Source: Mesodorylaimus sp. YZB2_4
Lineage: Eukaryota > Nematoda > Enoplea > Dorylaimida > Dorylaimidae
Assembly: GCA_030248295.1 (NCBI GenBank)
Contig: JASANH010000397.1
Location: forward strand, 19,994-83,993
DNA: 64,000 bases
Reading direction: 5' to 3'
This document shows, in pieces, positions 22,000 through 64,000 of the stretch. The notes below the pieces were generated by a model. The model did not search any database. It saw nothing but the letters and a program-made list of their open reading frames with translations, and was not told where the DNA came from. The translations under genes and the position numbers were made by a program. How positions within the stretch are numbered: the stretch's first letter is position 1; each line of letters opens with the position of its first letter.

Positions 22000-22058
22000 T
22001 TGGTCAAATGGAGAACTTCTAACTGCCCCAATGAGAGTACTCGCTACAGTGAAAAGTA

Positions 22059-25000
22059 ATGGGGCATTTGATTGGTCTGGTTGTTGTGAGCTTTCTTTGC
22101 TCGATATTGTGCCGAGTCGTTCAGAGTGCAGCATCCTGCCCATCTGGAGCCATCCCATTCAAAAATGCAACTACTGGCGATTTCATCTTTTGTGACGACA
22201 TTGAGACCTTTTGTCCGAAAAAAGGATACCAGTGTGTTTTGGACAAAGGAGTCAATGAAACTGATGTGATTGGAGTTTGCTGCCCGAAAGTTTTGGCTTT
22301 ACAATCGCGTGCAGAAGGCTGTCCTTTGGGAGCCAGGCCACTGAGGAATGCTTACGGGCAGCTGCTAGTTTGCTCGCCTGGGACTGCAGCCACTTGTCCG
22401 TCATTGGAGCGAGTGATGTGCTACAGCGGAATGATGGGATCCATTTGTTGCATTGCGGACAATGGTAAGTGCAAAAGCATTTTTATTCTACGTGAGCTAC
22501 TACCTCGCCATACTTAGTGTCGCGGGGCTGGAAGCAAAAATGGGCTACTGTACATATATAAAATGTACGTAATCTGATTCCGATCAGCTCGATTGGTCGC
22601 TCAACTGCTGGCTGTCTTCTAATTTTAGCTTACTGCCCGGCTGGATACGACCCATATTATTACCCAGGCACAATGTCGCCCCTAATCTGTGGCCCCACCA
22701 CGACTGGTATCTGCCCTTTCGGCTATCAGTGTCTAAGGTCGTCAAGCCCAGGAGGCCCCTACGCATGCTGCCAGCCACGGCAGTACCCGATCACGGCACA
22801 GTGCCCCACGGGTTTCCAGCCATATGTTACTGGCGGTGGTTCTCCCTTATCGTGCATTGTTGGCAGCCCTGCGAGCTGCCCCTCGCCAGCCGTCTGCGCA
22901 CCAACGTCGAACCCTTTCCAAAGCTACTGTTGCACACCGTTCACATCACCTCAACAGCTCCAGTGTCCAAATGGATATACGTTGCCAACGAGCGGAGTGG
23001 CAGCCCCGTGTGTTTTGATCATTGGAGGCGTGAACACTTGCCCTCTTGGGTCCAGTTGCAAACCCAGTGTGGGCACTCCCGGTGGTGTATGTTGCAGGTC
23101 ATTAGCGCAGTGTCCCGCTGGTTACCAACAAGCATTGAATCCAGTGACTCAGGAACTACTAGAGTGCACCGGCTCTGTATCAGCTCCTCAAACATGTCCC
23201 TTGGGATCTACTTGTCTGCTCTCGTCCACGACTATCAGTAGTCTTTGCTGCACTCCAACCAAATCGCCAGGTCGCTGTCCAACTGGCTACGATCCTATGC
23301 AACCATTGGTATCTCCATGTCAAACAGACGTCAGTTGTCCAATCGGCGCCCAGTGCATTCAGCAAGTGTGCTGTAGGCCATCGACCACCCCTACACAATG
23401 CCCTGCAGGATACACTCCTGATCAAATCATTGGAATTTTGTGCCAGATAGACAATCAGTGCCGCGCGGGCGCTCAGTGCATTCAGCAGGTTTGCTGCAGG
23501 CCAGTCTCAACTCAATGTCCTACTGGCTATGACCTTGATCAACCTGTTACCCCGTGCCAAACAGATCCGCAATGCCTAGTTGGTGCCCAGTGCCTTCAAC
23601 AGCTGTGCTGCAGGCCACTAATTCTCGCCCAGTGCCCAACTGGCTATACCGCTTTAGTAAATCCGAACAATGTCCCTGTGACATGTTCGGCAACGGATCG
23701 ATGGTGTCCTGTTGCTGAAGCTATGTGCCTGCAGTCTTCGACAACTATTGGTTTTATTTGCTGCAATCCAGTTGCTCAGGTGAGAGAGATCATTTTAGTC
23801 TTCCTTGACTGATAGGCGAATGAATGAGCACTAGGCGATGAGGTGGCCTGACTTATAGTTCTGGCATCGATAGAGATCCAGAATTACCACTCAAGAGACA
23901 CAGTCAAACGGCGCCTAGCGGAATCGGACCCCAGGTTCAGTTTTTATATACTTGTCTCAGGTTCTTTTAATGACTTATCTTTGATGATAAAAGAGTGCCA
24001 TCACCACGCTGCTCGTCTGGTAACTGATCCTGTTAACAGAGATATCAGCTGGCATCACTCGTCGGCACTGCTTCAGCCATGGATCAGGTCGAGAGCATTG
24101 ATTGGCTGCTGTGAGTTATCTGGGTGCACAACCTCCTCACTCACTCCAGTAATGCGCCCAGACATACGAATGTTGCCATACCTCACCAGCATAGCATAGG
24201 CGCAAGTCTGATATATTCCAGCAGCTGCGGATGTGAATTCTAAGAATAGCTATACTGCTTGATATTGATCAGTCAAAAATCAATGCTATCGTTACGATCG
24301 GCACTAAGAGTGTCTGTATTTTAGCAATGGCCACAATGTCCATCAGGGATGACCATTACTTTATTTGGTGGTCAACCCATCCCTTGTGATACGAGTTCCT
24401 GCCCTCCTGGCACATCTTGTCAGACATCGCTCGTCCCTTCCACACTGCGACGGATATGCTGCCAGCCAGATACCCCTTCCACCCAGCCCCAATGCCCTCG
24501 TGGGTTAACTCTGGTCGTAGACGCAGACAGGAGTCCATCGTATTGCAACCCCGGGGTCTGCGTCATACCAGCGACTTGCGAACGTGCGACCAATGTGGAA
24601 CGAGATGTGTGCTGCAGAGACGACACACCAGTCGGCGATAAGCGATGTCCCGATGGGTATCGGGCGCAAAGCACGGGTGGACAAGCTGTGCCTTGTGATC
24701 CAAATGCTATTGCACCCTGTCTGAATGGATTTTGCTTGCCTTCAATTACAGGTAGGCCTTTAATGCTGACTGTTTTCATTGTCTCACAAATTTCTCTTTA
24801 GGATCAGGAGAAAGCTCTACTGAAACCATCTGCTGCAATCCTATAGGCATCCAATGTCCGCCCGAATACAACCTTCCAGACGGCACTGGCGCTGCGGCAC
24901 TCACTTGCGACCCGTCGTCCATGAACCCATGCGGTACGGTTGGCGTGCCGGGTATCGAATGCAAAGGGGCCATCGGGACAGGGGTGTCAACCCAAAGGCC

Positions 25001-51493: not shown

Positions 51494-54400
51494 ATGATTT
51501 TATCCTTCAAAATTTCAATTTTATCAATTTTAAATGCCTTTATGTTGGTTTTGGTTTTTACGAGTGTGTCGAATGTTAGAATCGAGCATCAGGACATTGA
51601 AAATGGATTCGACGAAAGTCAAGCAACAAAAGAAGAGAAGAAAATGTTTGAAAGAATTTTTAATGCAGAAAACGAGCAAACTATGAACACGCAGAATTTT
51701 GAAGAAGTTTATCGAGATTCGAAAAAAGAAATCGAAGTGAAACGACTTTCATTGATGAAATTATTAGAAAATATTCGAATACGAAGACGGGCTATTGTTC
51801 AAGCAAAGGAAGCTGACGGGAGTGAGCCTATTTTCGAACAAGATTCACCATACGAGTCTTCTGAAGACTTCAAAACTACTAAACCCTTGTTTTCCATGTC
51901 CAACGATGCCGACATTGTAGGTTCGGCGACGAAACAGGTCGAAAACGATAACGATATCGATGAAAACCGAGAATCATCGATATCAGGAGATGATTCAGGG
52001 CAAAACTCTAGCAGTGGAACTGCATCGAATTCTGAGAAAGACACTTCGAACTCCACAGCTACGTCGAATACAGCGGCGCCCACTGCGGCCCCTGTGACCC
52101 CTTTGGCGACCCCGCCGACCCCCGCGCCTCGAAAACAGTTACTTATCGGATACTTAGCCGGACTACCGTTCAGCGGATTGGGTGATAATATTTTATCAGC
52201 TGTGCCAACCAAGTCCATGTTTGGCTCGGACTCGTTTTACATGGATGGACCAAACGCAGCTTTGCCCGATATCCCTTATTACAGCGGGGGAAACTCGAAT
52301 AGGAGATCAGGTGGTGGGGGTCGTCTTAAACGATTAGCCGAGCCGTATCCCGATCCTAAACCCGATCCATTCGCCGAACCCGATCCGTACGCAGACCCGG
52401 ACGGGTACCCGGATGCGATGCCTTTGGAACGGTTGCAGGTGGTTGGCACAAATAAGACAATATTATTGAAAGATTTGGCAATTGTTTTCCGAGAACATCA
52501 GGACATTATTAGCACTTCTAAAAACTTACAAGGTACGAGCTTGATAAAAGTTAGCGCCTTCGCGTAGGGGTGTCACTTGAAAGCAGCTACAGTATCCCAA
52601 AATAAAGTCGTGCGTCAGGACCAAAGGACCTTGTGTACAAGAGGCCGTGATTAAGGCTGACTTAGGCTTTTCGAATTACGCTACAAAATTCGATAAATAA
52701 AACAATTTTGTGGAAGCTTTCTTTTAAAATTAGTTTGTTGATAATGTCACCGTTTTTAATCGTTTTATTTTCCTTTGCTTGCGTTGTCCCCAAATTTTTT
52801 CGCCGCCTAAATATTCCTGCTCTCACTTTTTTGTTATTCCTGCATTAGTCCGATTCAGGTCTTCTTTTCCCCAGACACACATAGTCTCTGGCGAGACGTA
52901 CTCTCATCGGATGAATATCCATTCTGGCGCATTGCCCACGGACTAATTGCGTAAAGGAAATTTATATGAGCCATATGTGACTGGCCGGCGGGTAAAAGTG
53001 GCCGAGTGAGCATGAAAAATTGAAATATATCGAGCGTTTGCACTCAAATAAAAGCAAATGTGTTGGTGGCAATGTTGGTTGAATTGTAGCACCAGCTACC
53101 GTTTTTTTACTCTCTTCCCTTTTCCTGCAAGCACTTGACATCAATGCAGGGCAGAAAAATATATTTTCTGTCTTCATAAAATCAATATTGGCACGCTGGA
53201 GGCAATTAGTTGGGGCGCGGTGAGAGCGGACAGGGTCTGCGCATACTGGCTAAAACCAAAGGTCTTACTGAGGATGGACGCTAATCATTGCCACCAAGAA
53301 TCACCGATGAACAATTTTCTTTCCGAGTAATTTTTAAGGGGTTTTGTGGTCAGAGTAGAATATAACTTGCTTGCGAAAAAAAGCACGTTACCTCAAAAAT
53401 TTTCCAATACAGGAAAGGCGCAGATGCATGAATATTTTGCCATTCAGTCGAGCACTGTAAAATGTGATAGCTCATTTTTCTTCGACAATAATATGGCATC
53501 ACCAAGAGTTTCTCCGAGCAACCTTCGTGTTGCAACCTTTGTGCCCGGGTCGTGGCCTAGTGGGTAAAGGTGTCTGGCGCAGTCATAGGGGAGGGTTCGA
53601 CTTCCGCATGGGTGACAAGTTATTGTCAGTTCATGTGTTCCCTAGCCCTCTGGTGCGCTAAATGATGCGTGGCTATGGACAAAGTATGACATAACATAAA
53701 TGTATCAAAATCTGCAGTCTGCACCCTTTGCTAACATACACGAATTGCTGCGCATTTTCTTTGATCGCAAGGAGTTTTTCGCACCGTCGGCTGGTCTAAT
53801 GAATACAATGATTTTTTCCTTTGTAGGCCACCTGATTTCGGGTGCAATGCGTTACGCGTTGGAAATTGTAAATAATGATCCACGAATATTGCCTGATTAC
53901 GAACTGGTCTTCAAATTCTACAACATGAAGGGCCTTACGAAAGACAGTAAGTTCTATTTTTATAAGGTGGTTTGTTGAACCCCGAGGTGTCTTAGTATGG
54001 TACGTTTCTGCAGCTAAATGTGCGCTTGAATTTGCGATTCCGATTTCCTTTTTTGTTCCATCAGAAGACACTCGTTTTGCAAATCTGCCAAATGCTTTGC
54101 AGAAATGTCCAATTCACGTCAGTTTTCTGCCTTCTCTTGTCAGGTGTCAAAGCCGTAATGGAATTGTGGAGACAAGGAGCCGTGGCATTCATTGGACCGG
54201 AAGATAGTTGCCAGACGGAAGCCATGATCGCCGCTTCTGTGAATCTGCCTATGATCTCATACGTAAGTTGTTTTCAAAGTATTTTCCATTCGTTCACGTG
54301 GTCTCAGCTGTTTCCCAGGCAGAGTAATGCCATGCGGAAAGAAAAGTTTTCCGCGTGAATCAGCTTCGGATTGATAAGAAAATTCTGGGAAAAGTTAGTC

Positions 54401-57400
54401 TAAGTCCAGATTGTCATCAAAGTTTAAAATGCAAACTACGCTAATCAAAAATAAGCGATCAATATGCGCAATCTTGATAAGAAGCGGTTTTGCAATCAGC
54501 TTTCCACTTTGCTGATGTGAGTCTGAAAGGTTTGCCAGCCTTTTTTTAACTCGGCTGTATAAAAAAATTTAAATATACCAGCAGTTTCGCGGGGATATAG
54601 GACTGTTGATTTTTACAAAACGAAGCGTCAAAACTGAGAACAAACAAGTTTGATGAAGTGGAAACTGGTTTCACTTTTTTGTTTTCTCTCGAATTCCACT
54701 TCCATTCGTTTTCTTTTTATTTGCACCGCCGCAATGCCTGAGTTAGCGTTAGTTGGACGGAAAGTAAGCAGACAACGACGTGCGCCTTTCGATGATTGTT
54801 CGTCGTTAACTTTACGGCCTCTGATGTTATTCAAGTTCTTAGGATTTGCGAGTTTTGTGTTAGCCGAAGGGAAGGAATTTTCTGCTCCCTACTGGCTTAC
54901 AGTATTACTACTGTACGAGTACAATAGGCGTTAGTCTTTCGTCCTCTAGAGGGGTCTATTCAAGAGCACGAGGCGGTGGTTTATGACGATTTGGGACTGA
55001 CCTGATTCTGAGGCGATCAACTCGCCCAAACGCGCCAGTAATAAAGTCATCTTATTAAAATCGCATAAACCACTTATCGCCTCCAGTGCAAACACTTGTA
55101 GGTTTTGTGTTTCATTTAACCTTAAGTTCGGCGTGCGAGAAGACTGGGGAAAGTTTAAGGCGCATTGCCTCTGCCGCGAGACAAGACGTATGATAAGGAA
55201 TGAGTGCGACGTGAACGCGGTAGGCGGCGAGCGGAAATTTCGTCGGGCCGATTAAAAAGGAAGAAGCATGTCGTGCGTGAATCGTCTCGGGCCGCAGTCG
55301 CACTAGGTCCGAGAATGGTTCTAGAACCGTTCTGGATAAATTGTCCCTCGGTCGCACTACTGGTAGAGAATCGGTCTCATTCTAGTGTGACTGCGGGCTC
55401 ACCCGTCGAGCGTCTTCCTCTGTTGCTTAATTGGAGATTGGAGCAGGTCGTATAAGTGTGCCAATTGCGTTTGATTGCGCACATATTGTTTACACATGAC
55501 CCTCTCTTTGGCATTTTCAACCTCACTCAAGGGAGACTGAGTCGAAGAGAAAATATATTTGCCGCAATTTTTCCCAGTTCTTCTATCTTCTCTTGGCTTC
55601 TTCATCTCGCGATGAGAAGGCCATCGATCATTTCCTTCGAAGAGAGGGATTGTGTATGTTCTTTAAAGAAACCGTTTCCTGTCGCCGGAATCTGATATTT
55701 AATGTTTTTTGACCCTACTCGAGTCGCCACAGCGGGCGAATGGGATTTCTCCACTTTGATGTCATGTCCAGCGATCTCGGGTTTTATTGAAAAAAACACT
55801 CACCGGCAGGCTTAGAAGAAGGAAATATGAACTGGCATTTGCGAATATCAGTATAATAGGATGCTGATCACATTTGTCTCGGCGCGGGAAAAATGCCAAA
55901 GGCGTCCAATTTCCTGCTAAAAATGAAAAATAAACTGATATGACAGTGGTACATACTGTGTATACCACTAGCACTAAAGATCGAAGAAGCATGAAAGTAA
56001 TGAACATTTTTGTGCTGTTTTGACAAAAATCACTTGCCTCCTTGCTGGAGAGAACTCTGACGTACTTCAAGAATGAACATGCGGAAATTAAATCCTGTTA
56101 TGATGTGAATAAGCAACAGGGCACAACATAAGTTGTTAGTAATAGCAGTCTGAAAAAGAATCATGCTTTCACTCGTGGTCATTAAAGCACACCAAACATG
56201 ACATCTTGATTTTGTAAGCTACTTGGTGGTCCAGCTTCCGCTGAAGGTCTTTGTACTGACGCTAAAGGCCGGGGTCCAAAGCCATGTCCTTGACAATCAC
56301 AATATCAGCGAGCTAGGCTAGCATTGCGCTCTCCTGTTTGTAATTCATATCTCGACTACTTTTGGTCAATGATCGTGTTTGGTCATCAAAAACTCACTCG
56401 ACCTTTGCGTTGACGTTGATGCGCAACTCATAGTTCGGAGGAGGCACTGCGTACTGTACATACATCGGTGTTCCAACTCGTGAGCGCTCACGCCTGGGTC
56501 AGAAATTCAGATAAAGTGACCCGTGTTTATTGCGGAATTTGGACAAACCGACTTGTTAGGACGACTACAGTAATCCATAAACATCTTGCTGTTACAGGTT
56601 CTAGGACCAGGTCAATTACTGCTTAAGACGAAAAGCTAGTGAACGGAAATCCTATGCTTAGTAACAACTCGGACCATGCGTCATCAGCTTTCGCCCTACT
56701 TTAGCGAAGTTGTCGTAAATTAGCTTTTCCTGATTTGTGCAACGAGACCCTTGTCAACGGGACAGGCCAGTGGGGCGAAAACGAGTCAGCGCCTGCTTAA
56801 GTCCATCGTGAACACTGTTCGAGTGTCCCTTTGTCGCTGTGACATTTCATGCGGCCGTGGAAGATGGGGACCCGCAACTCACCTTGCGCTAATGACGCAT
56901 TTGATTAGCTTTTTCTTTGTCGCTGGCGAACTTCCTCTGCATTGTTGTCGGCCAACTCTTCGGCTTGTCATCATCTGGACAGGATCGCCATTAATGAGGT
57001 CGAGCTAAGTGCTAAGCTAAGCCATGCATAATCTTACTTTGCACGAAGGACTCTCTGGCGGTATCAGTCTCTTATTGTTAAGCTTATTAGCTCGCCAGAG
57101 ATGACAGCATCTTCGTGGAGCCGCCATGATTTTCACATCTTCTTGGCACTGATCCCACTTCCGACAATATTTTCCTGTACTTTTACATTTGTCCATGGAA
57201 ATGTCGACTTGCTAAACTGAATTATTGGCATGTCAAAGACGCTGAAACAAAACTAGGAGAGAATAAGAGGAAAAGCTAACGTGAGAAAAAGCTCGAATCA
57301 AGCATCTACTTTTTTTAGAAATGTGCCGACTATTCGGTGTCAGACAAAGCCAAATACAGTACATTTGCCCGAACAGTGCCAGCCGAAGGGGAAGTGTCCA

Positions 57401-60400
57401 AAGCAACAGTTGCCTTACTGAAACATTTCAAATGGTACAAGTTCACGATTATACACCAAGCCGACGAAGTCCACAGTAAATTAGTGGAGGATATTGTGGT
57501 AAGTTTAAACCATTTACTACGATTTGAAATAAGTTAGGACTAGCGTGAAATATAGCAGTTTCTAGCTGATACAATTTAAATAATGCATGTCAGTTTGAAG
57601 TCCCTCCAAAATTTTGATTCTCAGGCGCAGAGTATTTTAAAATTTGAGGGCTCTGCTGCTCATAAAAACCTGACTACAGAATTTACAGGTTTTACAGATT
57701 TACGTTTTTTTTACTTACCAAAACATCGTTTATTGCAGCACTGGGTCGAAAAATTTCCTTATATGGGCATCCAAAATACCACCTCTTATCGCGCTTCCTT
57801 TAACATCGGTGCAAAAACTTCAATCGAACAAGCCAGCCAAATTGTCAAAGAAACGTATAAAAATACCAGAAGTACGGTCTATAGAATTTTTCCTCTGTTT
57901 TGAAAATTCTGACTGATATCTCTTTCAGTCTACGTGGTACTCGGCGATCAAGGTTTCGTTCAGCTCATGCTAAATGACATGAACAACTTACGACTTTTTG
58001 AAAAGGGTGAATACGCTGTGGTCTACGTCGATCATACTTTCGGATATGTCAACTCGGACGATGCGGCTGTGAATCGCTATTATCGGCGTAAGTCCTCGCA
58101 TAATTGTCACTTTTAGTAATTTCCAAAGTAGTATTTGATGGTTTCGTGCAAATTTGATGCGCAGGCCTGGTTTTCTCGTCAAGCGAACAAAATGTTGCAA
58201 GCGGAAGGTCCTGCAGCCAACGAAATATTTGCCGAGACTAATCATAGCTAGCAAATGTCTAGCGGCGTGCTGTAATTTCCAGTAGTCCTGATACCCCCCC
58301 CCCCCCCCCCCCCAGACTATGCCTTGCCCTTATTCGGTATTATCGGAAACAAAACATAATTTGACGAACAGACACTCCTGCCGTCCTTGCTCCACTTAAA
58401 ACGCAATATCCAAGTCGAAACCAGTCAGATACCAAAGGGAGGCAGGCAACAAAAAGCAGTTCTTTCAGTTCAAAAGCAACATAATCCTCAGAAACATTTC
58501 TTCTCTGCTATTTGCTCTGCATAAAGTAAAGCCCTGTTACGAAAAAAGTTTGACTGCATTATGCTTTGATAATGCTAAGATTTTACCTTTTTCAAACGAA
58601 CAAACTAAACTGATATTATTTTCGTTATAGCAACGATTAATGTAGTCGACAAAGATAGCGCCAATCGCGATCTTCGCCTTTTAACTGATATCAGCCGTTC
58701 TTTATTCGTGGTCATTCCCACGCCAGTTTCGTATAATAATAGCAAATATCAACATTTTTGGGAAAAAGTGGTTCAGTATAACACAGAGGAGCCGTTCAAA
58801 ACTTATCGAACTGTCGGATATTCTACATTGAATACAAAAAAACCCATAGTAAGTGAACTGATGTATGATTTTGCTGAAGGAGGGAACACGAATTTGGGCA
58901 TGTCAAGACCCTGTAGCTAATTGAAATAGACGAAGAGCAAGTACCCATTTACACTTGCCCCTCTCTAAGGGAGCAGGAACAGATGACTAGTTTTCACCCT
59001 CTCATTCTCGTGGATGGTTTGAAAAAGGAATATAATTTTGCAATCATGAACATAAGTTACGTCTCCCTCGTCAACCAAAAATAAATATTTTCAGGATAAT
59101 CGCTATGCCAGCTATTTATACGACGCAGTTTATTTATATGCAACTGCCCTGCATGAAGCAATTCAAGCTAAAGAAAATTATACAAATGGCACAGCCATAA
59201 TTAAAAGGATATTGGGTAGAAAATACAAAAGTGAGTGGATAAATGTGTAATCAGCATTCCTGGCGGTCGGGAGATCAATCCCCCTTCCTGGATGGGAGAC
59301 GTCAGCCAGTCCGGTTGATGTTTCAGCGGCAGAGAGGCAACCATCCGACTGGAGGAAGCAAGCCTTGCGTTCGCTGTGGCCTGGGCTTCCTGCTTCTGGA
59401 CGCCCTACCAGACTTTGGCCTGGGCTGTCTCCACTCGAGGCTCCAACGAAACCCGGCCATACGTCGGGGTTAGGTTCAGGATAAAACCTGTACCGCAGGG
59501 TGAAGGTGCAGCGAGCGTTTGATGCACGTTGTAGCGCGACGGTGGGAACACTTACAGATAAGGTCCCGCCACTGGAATGCTGGTTCACCCCATTGGAGAA
59601 TGGTGGGGACGCCATTCTCCAAGATGCTTCCATCTAATGTTTGGCATCGTACATACTTTTTATTAACGTCAGGCATGCAAGGCTTTGAGGTCAAATTGGA
59701 CGAACAAGGCGATGCGAAAGGCAATTTCACTTTACTAACTCGTCAGCGTGTGAATTCGAGTGCATTTAATTTGACTTATTCAATGGTGCCTACTGCAGTC
59801 TTCGTCGATTCTGTTGACGGTGATGAATTGCCTGTGAGTCAATCCGTTTAAATGCTGCAGTCAATTTTTTTCTGGCACCAAATTTTGAATAGCGGCTGAA
59901 AATTATGAATAAAATTTTTGCTATTTCGCAAATGTTTTTTCAGGCTTTGCGCTTACATGACAATTTTGCCATCGATTGGATTGGAGGAAAACCACCAGCT
60001 TACGAACCTGATTGCGGATTTCATAACGAGAGATGTCAAAAAGAAAAAAGTAAGTAATGAAAGTGGAAAAGCTGGAAAGTCAGGGAATCCCAGAAGTGCT
60101 TGGAAAACCTAGGGGAATCAGGGAAAACGGGAATGTTGGAGCTAAACTTAGGGCAAACTGAGCGGTTGCATTTCGAGGCTCCGAATTTCGGGTCACCCGC
60201 CTTTTCTATGTGCCTTTCTGTGTGTTTCTGATCATGCTCGAAGTCAGTGAATCAGTTAAAGTTGATTCAGTATTGCTTGGACAGTGTGAAAATTATCGGG
60301 CGAAAAAATCAAATTTTTGTCTGGGAAACCTAGAAAAATCAGGGAAAATCGTTTTCCGCTCCTTGTATGCACCCTAAATAATTACGGTCACTATATTAGA

Positions 60401-63400
60401 ATTTTCCATAGGAAAAATTCCGTTGTGGAAATTTCTTACATCACTTACAGTATGTGCAGTGTGAGAAAGTCCAAAGTTCATGTTTATTTTTGGATTTTAG
60501 GTAGAACGACAGAAATCGTAGGTGGTGTATTTGCCGTATTTGCTATTGTTAGTGGATTAATCGGTTATTTCGTGTACAGGTGAGAAAAATTTTTGGCTCT
60601 CTCAAATCAACTCAAGAAATTTTGCAAATTTTGCTTTCGAAATCTGAATTTTGCAATAACCTTTTTTGCAACTGAATTGCAGACAACCCAAATTTAAAAA
60701 ATTGCTATATTTTATTTTCCAACCTGAATATGCACAAACTTTTGTTGAATGTAATTCAATTTTAGAAATCGCAAAATCGAAAGAGAACTTGCTGGCTTGA
60801 TTTGGCGTATTGAGTTCAAGGATATCATTAAAATAACTCGAGATGGGTATAATCAAACACTTAATGCAAGTCGAGTATGTTTTTTATAGCCTTTACTAAT
60901 CTTTTCGGGAATGTTGACTGGTTTTTTACAATTGCTCAGGTGACCATTGGCAGTCAAGATTCGAACGATTATGGCGGGGGCTTGTTCTCGACGATCGATT
61001 ACCATTGCTTGGCCAAGTATAAAGGCTCACTGGTGGCCATAAAAGAAATACAGTATGACCGACGCTTGAAAGAAATTACCAGGGCTACAAAAAAAGAAAT
61101 GAAAAAAGTGAGTGAATAACAATTTTTGAAGTGCAGGTGGGGAGAGGCTGTGTAATTGTGTGCAGATCAGTCTTTCTCTGAGTATTGCGAGAAGGGTCAG
61201 TTCGACCTGGAACACTCCCTGGGGTTCAGCGCCCACTCGCCATTCCCAGAGAAAGGCAGTTGCTAGCTGGCGAAAGCAAAACGGGTTTGGGTGGGTGGAG
61301 TCCAAAAACTGTGCAAGAAATAGCTGCTGTATCCCTAAAGTAATGGTGGTAAATATATTGCAGAACGGCTTTTCTCTTCCCATCAAAAATATTTTTACGG
61401 ATACATGGGCTGACTGACTTTACCGCACCAAAAAGACTTGACAACCCATCCCAACTGGCACAGAGCACAAGTGAAAACGTCAAAACTAGCAACTTCGAAA
61501 ATGCAAGTCTATGAACTCGTCAAAAGTGTAATTTAAAATGAATACTTCGTTTCAAGAATTAAATCGAGAGAATAAGTAATTAGTTGCTCACAGTCAGCGT
61601 TGACAGCGTTGACTCATCTGCTTCTAAAGGATATGATAGGTTATGCAGTGAACTGAAATTAAAGTTGACAGGACAATATGCCGCGAGCCGCGAAATATTT
61701 TGTTTATAACTCATATTTTCACAGTATTGGCCAACTGCATTGTAGATTAACCAACTGACTTGTACAGCTGCACCATGTCAGTCGGTTACTGTACGATGCA
61801 CTGTATGCACTTTAAGCAAAGTGATTGAGCTGGTCAGAGTATAAAATTCATGACATTGCTTATTTCAGATGCGAAGTCTGCACCACGACAATGTGAACAA
61901 CTTTATGGGAATTATATTGCAACAAGATCGTATTTACGTTGTGCGCGAATATTGTGCAAAGGGTAGTCTCTTTGATGTTTTGCTCAATGAAAATATTAAA
62001 TTGGACGAATTATTTTGCGCATCATTTGTGGATGACTTAATCAAAGTATGGCCCAGTTTGGCTTTTGGTTTCAAGATACATCAAGTACTGGTTTACTTTT
62101 AGGCGATGACTTACCTGCACGAATCCGAGTTACGGGTACATGGGAATTTAAAATCGACCAATTGCGTGATTACAAGTCGGTGGTCTTTACAAGTTTCCGA
62201 CTACGGACTGCACGAACTCAGGGACGGACAAATATTTGAACATGACAATCAGCGGTATAAAGGTTCGTATATCAGTTTTTCTTTTGTAAGCAATCAGTTT
62301 CAGTTCAGTTATTGTGTCAGTTTATTTAGGAAATTAAATGTTAGCGCACTTTAGCAATTTTAGCGGAAACTGGCTAATAAATAATTGACTTCTTTTAGCA
62401 CTTTTGTGGACGGCCCCTGAAATTCTGTTAAGCGGTGGCATTGAGAAACCACAAAAAGGCACGCAAAAAGGCGATGTATTTTCATTTGGTATTGTCCTAC
62501 ACGAAATTTTCACTCGAACTGGCCCGTATGGGATTGAATCCACTTCTGGTGCTCTGACTGCAAAAGGTAATTGCGACCTTTGTTGACTACCAGCAGATTA
62601 AATTACGCTCAGCTCCCTCTGACCAGGCTGCAGATGAGGAAATTCCACTACCTGGATCAGTTATCTAGAATGAGCAAATTGTGATAAGACAGTCGGGTAT
62701 TGTTACTTATCTGCTGAGATCAGACGCTCAAATCACTTTATATTTGCCTGATAAAATCATTCATGTGCTCAGATCAAGCTGATTGTGATCCCTGCTGGTT
62801 GTGATCTGCTCAGAGCAGACAGATCTGATCACTTATCCACTCAGATCATACAGATCTGGTCACTGATCTGCTCAGATCAGATTAGCCTGATCGATCTTGA
62901 TCTCACAGATCATATCAATCGGATCGATATTGATCCGACAGATCAGATCGTATCGATTAGACAGACCGCATCGATCAGATCTATCTTTATCAGACTGATC
63001 AGATCAATCAGATCGTCTTGATCAGACAGATCAGATCAATTGGATCGATCTTGATCAGACAGACCAGATCAGTCAGATGGACCTTGATCAGACAGATCAG
63101 ATCAGTGATCCACTTGGTTGAGGATCTACCCAGATTCCAAAAATCTGATCACTCAATTGTATCATATGAGTGTCGTTTCTATTCAGATATCGTGATGCTG
63201 ATAATCAAAACGAGACAAAATCGTGATAAGCCGGATATCGTTGAGCGAGACGATGAAGAATTAGAAATGCTCGGATTGGTCAATATGAACAAACCATATT
63301 TGCCTAGTCTTGAAGAATTTCAGTGTCAGAATTACATCAAGGACACCATGAATGCGTGTTGGGACGAGAGACCAGAGGCCAGACCAGATTTTCGAACGTT

Positions 63401-63860
63401 GCGTCACAAATTGAAGCCATTGTTCAAAGGCATACTGTAAGTAGTATTGGTTTTTTGCATTTTTTTCTTAAATTTTATCGATCGATCGAATTTTTCGAAA
63501 TTTGTTTGATCGAAATTTGCTTGATTTCAGACGACGGAATATCATGGATCACATGATGCTGATGATGGAGAAGCATCAGAATCATTTAGAACAGTTGGTG
63601 GACGAAAGGACGATGGCATTAAACGAAGAGAAAAAACGAGTGGAAACATTGTTACATCGAATGCTGCCTCAGTAAGAATTTCAATTGCAGGATTCCCGAT
63701 ACGGCTAGGAGAAAAGACAATTTTGCACTTTTTCAGTACCGTGGCTGAACAACTGATGCGCGGTGATGACGTGGCTCCAGAAAGTTACGATGCAGTCACT
63801 ATCTACTTTTCTGATATCGTCGGATTTACTTCACTTTCCGCCGAAAGTACTCCATTGCAG
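51494..63860 (+). CDS. receptor guanylate cyclase, 5' and middle exons (3' end beyond window)
   Basis: Single-pass receptor that makes cGMP. Nineteen exons join in phase for 1249 residues: 51494-52532, 53827-53946, 54144-54262, 57319-57498, 57739-57871, 57929-58087, 58631-58848, 59095-59230, 59673-59833, 59944-60049, 60501-60579, 60766-60874, 60940-61107, 61869-62045, 62103-62262, 62399-62566, 63187-63436, 63531-63671, 63737-63860. Signal peptide at 1-28. ANF-receptor domain about 214-770: [10 protein letters not shown], then [70 protein letters not shown] about 797-815 ([20 protein letters not shown]). Kinase-homology domain about 850-1150 with VAIKEI, HGN in place of HRD, DYG in place of DFG and LLWTAPEIL: a pseudokinase as usual. 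Coiled coil with [13 protein letters not shown]. Cyclase domain starts [19 protein letters not shown] and is cut at the window end. Exon 1 is joined by phase and by the split of the ANF fold (about 0.65); exons 2-19 are firm. Confidence 0.93.
52533..53826 (+). other. guanylate cyclase intron 1
   Basis: Holds the family-A SINE at 53545-53695 and no other recognised feature. Confidence 0.5.
53545..53695 (+). repeat. family-A tRNA-derived SINE copy
   Basis: Plus strand: GTCGTGGCCTAGTGGGTAAA (A box), GGGAGGGTTCGACTTCC (B box), body with GTTCATGTGTTCCCTAGCCC and GGCTATGGACAAAGTATGAC, A-rich end. Closest to the copy at 31191-31363. Confidence 0.85.
54263..57318 (+). other. guanylate cyclase intron 3 (3 kb)
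   Basis: No coding sequence was recognised. A small inverted-repeat element is listed at 55291-55397. Frames open at 54650-54934 and 55204-55455 show no domain. Confidence 0.5.
55291..55397. mobile_element. MITE-like element with 15-bp terminal inverted repeats
   Basis: Ends CCGCAGTCGCACTAG and CTAGTGTGACTGCGG are inverted copies with one mismatch, 107 bp apart. The centre has the palindrome GGTTCTAGAACC and a second CGGTCGCACTA. No target-site duplication is clear. Confidence 0.55.
58294..58313 (+). repeat. poly-C run of 20 nt in guanylate cyclase intron 6
   Basis: Twenty consecutive C (poly-G on the other strand). Confidence 0.95.
59250..59420 (+). repeat. family-B repeat, partial copy in guanylate cyclase intron 8
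   Basis: CTGGCGGTCGGGAGATCAAT, GGATGGGAGACGTCA and CCGGTTGATGTTTCAGCGG match other family-B copies; the 3' half is diverged. Confidence 0.65.
61108..61868 (+). other. guanylate cyclase intron 13
   Basis: No feature recognised in this 761-nt intron. Confidence 0.5.
62700..63115 (+). repeat. GATC-rich satellite in guanylate cyclase intron 16
   Basis: A run of about 400 bp built from GATCAGA/CAGATC/GATCGATC/TGATC phrases, with imperfect periods of 10-13 and about 40-50 bp (for example CTTGATCAGACAGA(T/C)CAGATCA repeated four times). Because GATC is its own complement the whole block is rich in short palindromes. It keeps frames open on the plus strand but has no coding character. Confidence 0.85.
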
Positions 63861-64000
63861 GTAAGTGCTCTATGGATGCGGCAGTCTCTGTTGTTTCTTT
63901 TTGGGGGGAATATTATCTTGAATAATACAGTATAAAGCATGGTAGTGTCAGCAGCCGTGAACCAGATGTCCTCTTCAGGACTCCTACTGCGGACTGGGAC

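Follow-up and report, generated by a model that had tools for sequence, protein, structure and literature searches.

Does the ligand-binding fold of a nematode receptor guanylate cyclase carry a large extra segment between its first strand and its first helix, and, if so, what might that segment do? The original prediction described an insertion of about 120 residues at this place, encoded in the same exon as the strand. The locus lies in a 64,000-nt window, the whole stretch of DNA that was analysed, from Mesodorylaimus sp. YZB2_4 (assembly GCA_030248295.1, contig JASANH010000397.1, positions 19,994-83,993). The genome searched is 145 Mb long and is split over 1067 contigs.

A receptor guanylate cyclase gene at a contig end

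The gene model, rebuilt by eye and by script, comprises 19 exons at 51494-63860 on the forward strand, with GT-AG borders in 18 of 18 introns. The spliced protein was searched against Pfam from residue 213 onward. This revealed an ANF-receptor domain (PF01094, E 2.1e-39, profile positions 3-348 of 353), a kinase-homology domain (PF07714, E 3.6e-38) and an HNOBA linker (E 4.2e-5). A single hydrophobic stretch of 21 residues, recognised by eye, precedes the kinase-homology domain as the membrane span. The cyclase domain is present on the contig by its start alone, window base 64000 being the contig end; it scored 20.8 bits in the spliced protein (cut-off 21.9) and 28 bits in the genome scan. By its domain order, the gene is a receptor guanylate cyclase. 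The features discussed below are as follows.

51494-52532, forward strand: exon 1, with a signal- or anchor-like segment, a long pre-fold region, strand beta1, the insert and the approach to helix alphaA; open frame, donor after 52532
51776-51787, forward strand: RIRR, residues 95-98, a possible convertase site in the pre-beta1 region; RIRR also occurs at paralogue residues 66-69
52139-52165, forward strand: strand beta1, LLIGYLAGL, residues 216-224; LLVGYLAGT in the paralogue, with identity at 10 of the 13 positions 212-224
52166-52513, forward strand: the insert proper, 116 residues (225-340), between beta1 and alphaA
52166-52207, forward strand: front end of the insert, 14 residues, conserved; PFANLGDDLFATVP in the paralogue (z 7.0, 0/2000 shuffles)
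52208-52420, forward strand: variable middle of the insert, with the Gly-rich basic site and the Pro-Asp repeats, weakly alignable to the paralogue
52322-52333, forward strand: RLKR, residues 277-280, a convertase-type R-X-[K/R]-R motif in the middle of the insert; the paralogue insert has RIRR at residues 203-206
52421-52513, forward strand: back end of the insert, conserved (z 6.7, 0/2000 shuffles), with the sequon NKT (residues 320-322) and the onset of a predicted helix (325-345)
53827-53946, forward strand: exon 2, the start of helix alphaA; AG acceptor, phase identical in the paralogue
54144-63860, forward strand: exons 3-19 with their introns, encoding the remaining ligand-binding domain, membrane span, kinase-homology domain and start of the cyclase domain (Pfam PF01094, PF07714, PF07701 and the start of PF00211)

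The ends of two other contigs, C998 (locus L078) and C173 (L079), open with the cyclase exon expected after the last exon of the window, and continue into a tail region with a C-terminal open frame of 538 codons. Across 3256 aligned positions the two ends share 99.6% identity. Comparison of the last 601 window bases with the two by blastn gave no match. From their position and likeness they are probably the rest of the window gene, and probably represent a redundant assembly of its 3' half.

Elsewhere in the window, GATC-rich tandem repeats with a period of about 31-33 occupy 62802-63104, within an intron of the kinase-homology region. Three open frames at 22053-24798, probably a single gene, carry Lustrin-cysteine repeats, and a single 352-codon frame at 34330-35385 matches Srsx-type chemoreceptor GPCRs; this gene content is as one would expect of a nematode.

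The insert and its counterpart in a paralogue

Exon 1 runs open for 346 codons and one nucleotide, starting with the ATG at 51494 and ending at the donor behind 52532, and joins exon 2 in phase 1 with the frame kept. The insertion that had been predicted between strand and helix is present and measures 116 residues, with TSKNLQ, the six residues that close the exon, counted to the conserved stretch leading into alphaA. When the insert bases (52166-52516) were shuffled by a first-order Markov procedure, the frame stayed open in only 34 of 5000 trials. The coding score of the insert frame was +0.10 bits per codon, whereas 189 overlapping window-frames from introns 2-18 of the same gene peaked at -0.03, on a scale trained on this gene's own exons 2-19 and introns 2-18. 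None of the 189 was free of stops.

A search of the genome with the ectodomain returned 22 matches: ten on the gene's own contig, nine on contig C178 (each 44-79% identical) and three weak ones elsewhere (E 7e-4 to 6e-3). The matches on C178 mark a paralogue (L063 and L071, C178:12501-27500), whose contig matches the cyclase profile at positions 2-143 of 183 and carries the later cyclase motifs followed by a long open frame. Its first exon (C178 13627-14383) is a stop-free run of 252 codons ending at the same boundary position and in the same phase as in the window gene. This shared boundary agrees with the joining of exon 1 to 53827.

The paralogue carries an insert of 85 residues after LLVGYLAGT. 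Aligned globally, the whole inserts reach a z of 9.4, a score attained by 0/2000 shuffles; the score of the middle alone was reached by 16/2000 local and 2/2000 global shuffles. The back ends each hold a sequon (NKT in the window copy, NTS in the paralogue), two alignment columns apart. Where the two proteins agree, their codons often do not: they differ at 5 of 7 identical residues in the front end, at 9 of 12 in the middle and at 7 of 17 over residues 310-346. The likeness thus reflects conservation of the protein and not recent copying of DNA. From this comparison we conclude that the two inserts are homologous.

Conservation is uneven along the inserts. The original prediction drew attention to Pro-Asp repeats, which do run from residue 286 (52349; PDPKPDP) and yet form the least conserved part, the paralogue counterpart being merely PNPNPE. 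The hydrophobic start that had been ascribed to the insert was not borne out, the front end from residue 225 onward being not notably hydrophobic. Upstream of beta1, at 51494-52138, lies a long region of about 190 residues past the signal-like start, mostly acidic, rich in Ser, Thr and Pro and free of cysteine, which could be a prodomain. The pre-beta1 regions of the two copies show no significant likeness (scores reached by 1317/2000 local and 421/2000 global shuffles).

The length of the loop was compared across the genome, where a family search gave 92 ANF-receptor matches at 30 loci; upstream frames were read for 27 of these (all save L017, L029 and L036). The ligand-binding fold is alike throughout, and how far the beta1 Gly lies from the end of alphaA (marked by Asn, or by the Thr or Ile replacing it) sets the two genes apart. 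This distance is 143 residues in the window gene and 112 in the paralogue, in contrast to 28-32 in six other receptor cyclases, which have a short loop, and 37-49 in ten further ANF-receptor genes that by eye are mGluR-like or similar. The six controls, like the ten further genes, hold beta1 and alphaA in one frame; the six were called cyclases from cyclase matches downstream on the same contig and strand. Among the resolved receptor cyclases, with the remaining ones, in which the first and the matched exon are separated, set aside, the paralogue is the only other carrier of an insert.

Neither exon 1 of the window gene nor that of the paralogue had a Pfam match up to E 1. Residues 213-346 drew a single chance-level match in the PDB (E 1.7, searched up to E 10), and a piece of another cyclase of this genome likewise drew one (E 1.3). 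A 74-residue piece was scanned once against prokaryote genomes and once against viral contigs, and no orthologue emerged, as expected. A transposon or recent duplication was rejected, since exon 1 DNA matches the genome once, at itself, and synonymous differences from the paralogue are numerous.

Might the insert instead be missing from the mature mRNA, either through an intron inside exon 1 or because the exon was misdrawn? Acceptor-like sites do occur within it, with scores of 6.5 at 52200, 5.4 at 52439 and 4.0 at 52285 (positions of the first exon base), against 4.8-13.9 for the real acceptors. However, the best donor inside exon 1 scores 5.5 (at 51563), compared with 6.8-12.0 for the real donors of the gene, from which the matrix itself was built; the internal donor that the original prediction named as the refuting outcome is thus not to be found at the strength of real ones. 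Furthermore, the eight top internal donors all lie upstream of beta1, so that no intron could run from one of them into the insert without deleting the strand as well. On donor scores and site positions, an internal intron excising the insert was rejected. With the ends of the insert kept as protein in the paralogue, its absence from the mRNA is most improbable.

Given an open, in-phase frame, ends conserved in the paralogue and no exon 1 donor matching the real ones, we regard the insert as very probably genuine; it is very probably translated, and very probably predates the duplication.

Convertase-type motifs and the possible roles of the insert

The Gly-rich basic site (residues 270-280, 52301-52333), which had been likened to a convertase cleavage site, ends in RLKR, and the paralogue insert has a motif of this type too, RIRR. 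Both stand in a probably exposed ectodomain loop, a few residues before a Pro-rich run: the acidic PDPKPDP in the window copy and PNPNPEP in the paralogue. In shuffles preserving composition, an R-X-[K/R]-R motif arose in 1.9% of window inserts and in 10.8% of paralogue inserts. The product of these chances is 0.002, uncorrected for the four regions inspected. MAFFT aligned the two motifs, and a BLOSUM global alignment placed them about five columns apart; their exact register is insecure.

A further RIRR, which the original prediction leaves unmentioned as it does the paralogue itself, stands upstream of beta1 in both proteins, with corresponding shuffle chances of 0.040 and 0.244. Because the pre-beta1 regions are not significantly conserved overall, this shared motif is only suggestive. 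In the window protein it falls inside a predicted helix (residues 63-107, pLDDT above 90 over 71-100), and this confident prediction does not favour cutting there.

The structural evidence comes from an AlphaFold model of exon 1 alone, predicted from a single sequence with a mean pLDDT of 51.9. Residues 183-283, which include the RLKR site, fall below 50 and the Pro-Asp stretch lies at about 46-56, and thus the middle of the insert is predicted to be disordered. Residues 325-345 are modelled as a helix at low confidence. Beta1 was not drawn as a strand; in a model of exon 1 alone, lacking the partner strands, this is unsurprising. The earlier description of an extra surface module fits loosely: it suits the conserved ends and the last, predicted helical part, but not the middle, which seems disordered and differs between the copies in both length and sequence. 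The alternative description, a cleavable segment, is a fair reading, given a segment that is very probably genuine coding sequence and a convertase motif that is found again in the paralogue.

The best explanation, to which we would give an even chance, is that the insert forms a flexible loop at the entrance to the ligand cleft and is cut there by a convertase, giving a receptor of two chains. Genuine, translated inserts of 116 and 85 residues would occupy the beta1-alphaA loop of the Venus-flytrap domain in the two paralogues. A furin-type convertase would cut after RLKR or RIRR in the secretory pathway, so that the mature receptor would consist of two chains. The N-terminal chain would carry beta1, held non-covalently in the lobe-1 sheet, while the C-terminal chain would begin with a Pro-rich arm that is flexible and, in the window copy, also acidic. 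In the Venus-flytrap fold the loops of the ligand cleft lie on the side where the loop exits beta1, and cutting would for this reason be expected to make the cleft or a dimer contact accessible, or to adjust that access.

Cleavage itself we hold tentatively, at a little short of an even chance. It is favoured by the presence of R-X-[K/R]-R in both inserts, by the predicted disorder over residues 183-283 and by seven matches to the convertase P domain in the genome, all above the cut-off. Against it, the middle of the insert is weakly aligned, the motifs fall out of register in the second aligner, and in the basic-rich paralogue insert such a motif is fairly likely by chance. Leucine directly after the cut, as in RLKR followed by LAE, is not a residue that furin favours. 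A two-chain product is further opposed by the make-up of the exons, as neither exon 1 offers a cysteine to join the chains.

Were the loop to remain uncut, the insert could be a real but disordered spacer whose conserved ends pack on lobe 1 as a small add-on, with a middle drifting under weak constraint through repeat expansion. The differing lengths of the whole inserts and the variable composition of the middle agree with this, as do the confinement of Pro-Asp repeats to the window copy and the predicted disorder of that copy; the occurrence of R-X-[K/R]-R in both copies despite poorly conserved surroundings does not, and we consider such a spacer possible if somewhat doubtful. Alternatively, the basic cluster and the acidic or proline run might together form a binding site, either for heparan sulfate or an acidic ligand on the basic part, or for each other as a self-binding lid. 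The basic cluster stands directly ahead of the Pro/acidic run in the window copy and ahead of a Pro/Asn/Glu run in the paralogue (KRRIRREPNPNPEP), but the acidic part of the latter is small, with one Glu on either side of PNPNP, which leaves a binding role unlikely. A bolder version of the convertase-cut loop, modelled on the way adhesion GPCRs use a tethered strand, would place the cut inside the fold such that the N-terminal chain lends the core strand beta1 non-covalently; the shift or release of beta1, or of the new N-terminal arm lying in the cleft, would then switch the cyclase. We deem this switch improbable.

Comparison with known receptors

We take the closest named relatives of the window gene to be insect Gyc32E and Gyc76C and receptors of the nematode GCY-12 kind; its motif run FIGPEDSC...FARTVP resembles Gyc32E/76C. 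The order of domains is alike (ANF receptor, membrane span, kinase homology, HNOBA linker, cyclase), whereas the 116-residue beta1-alphaA insert with its convertase motif and the long pre-beta1 region would set the window gene apart.

Single-span receptors processed by convertases include the insulin receptor, Met and Notch. These have in common with the window protein an R-X-[K/R]-R motif in a likely ectodomain surface loop and, here, a possible two-chain product. In contrast, the window motif lies inside a Venus-flytrap fold, past the first strand, in an exon without cysteine. Longer beta1-alphaA loops are familiar from class C receptors (loop 1 of CaSR, and mGluR), where they measure a few tens of residues and contain cysteines; the window insert shares the lengthened loop, but spans 116 residues and is cysteine-free.

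In published work, C. elegans GCY-12 groups with an insect clade at a posterior probability of 0.99 (PMC1435932), and Gyc76C and Gyc32E are described as belonging to two protostome-only clades (PMC12611267). The latter paper also places ITP/CHH-like peptide genes in nematodes, among others. The longer isoform GCY-12.a is described as having extra C-terminal sequence (PMC12324235). Open frames in the paralogue, and in what is likely the 3' half of the window gene, suggest long C-terminal tails there too. Among the matches listed in the open-access literature, seen as titles and the beginnings of abstracts, none reported convertase cutting of any receptor guanylate cyclase, and none of the listed matches described an inserted segment in GCY-12 within its ligand-binding domain. 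The excerpts of PMC5225109, PMC2991246 and PMC12104661 make no mention of an ectodomain insert or of cleavage.

The proposed loop bears on how such receptors might be controlled. To our knowledge, many nematode receptor cyclases have neither an identified ligand nor a known mode of activation. If the preferred reading is true, a conserved and possibly convertase-cut loop at the ligand cleft in two paralogues would constitute a new control point for receptor cyclases.
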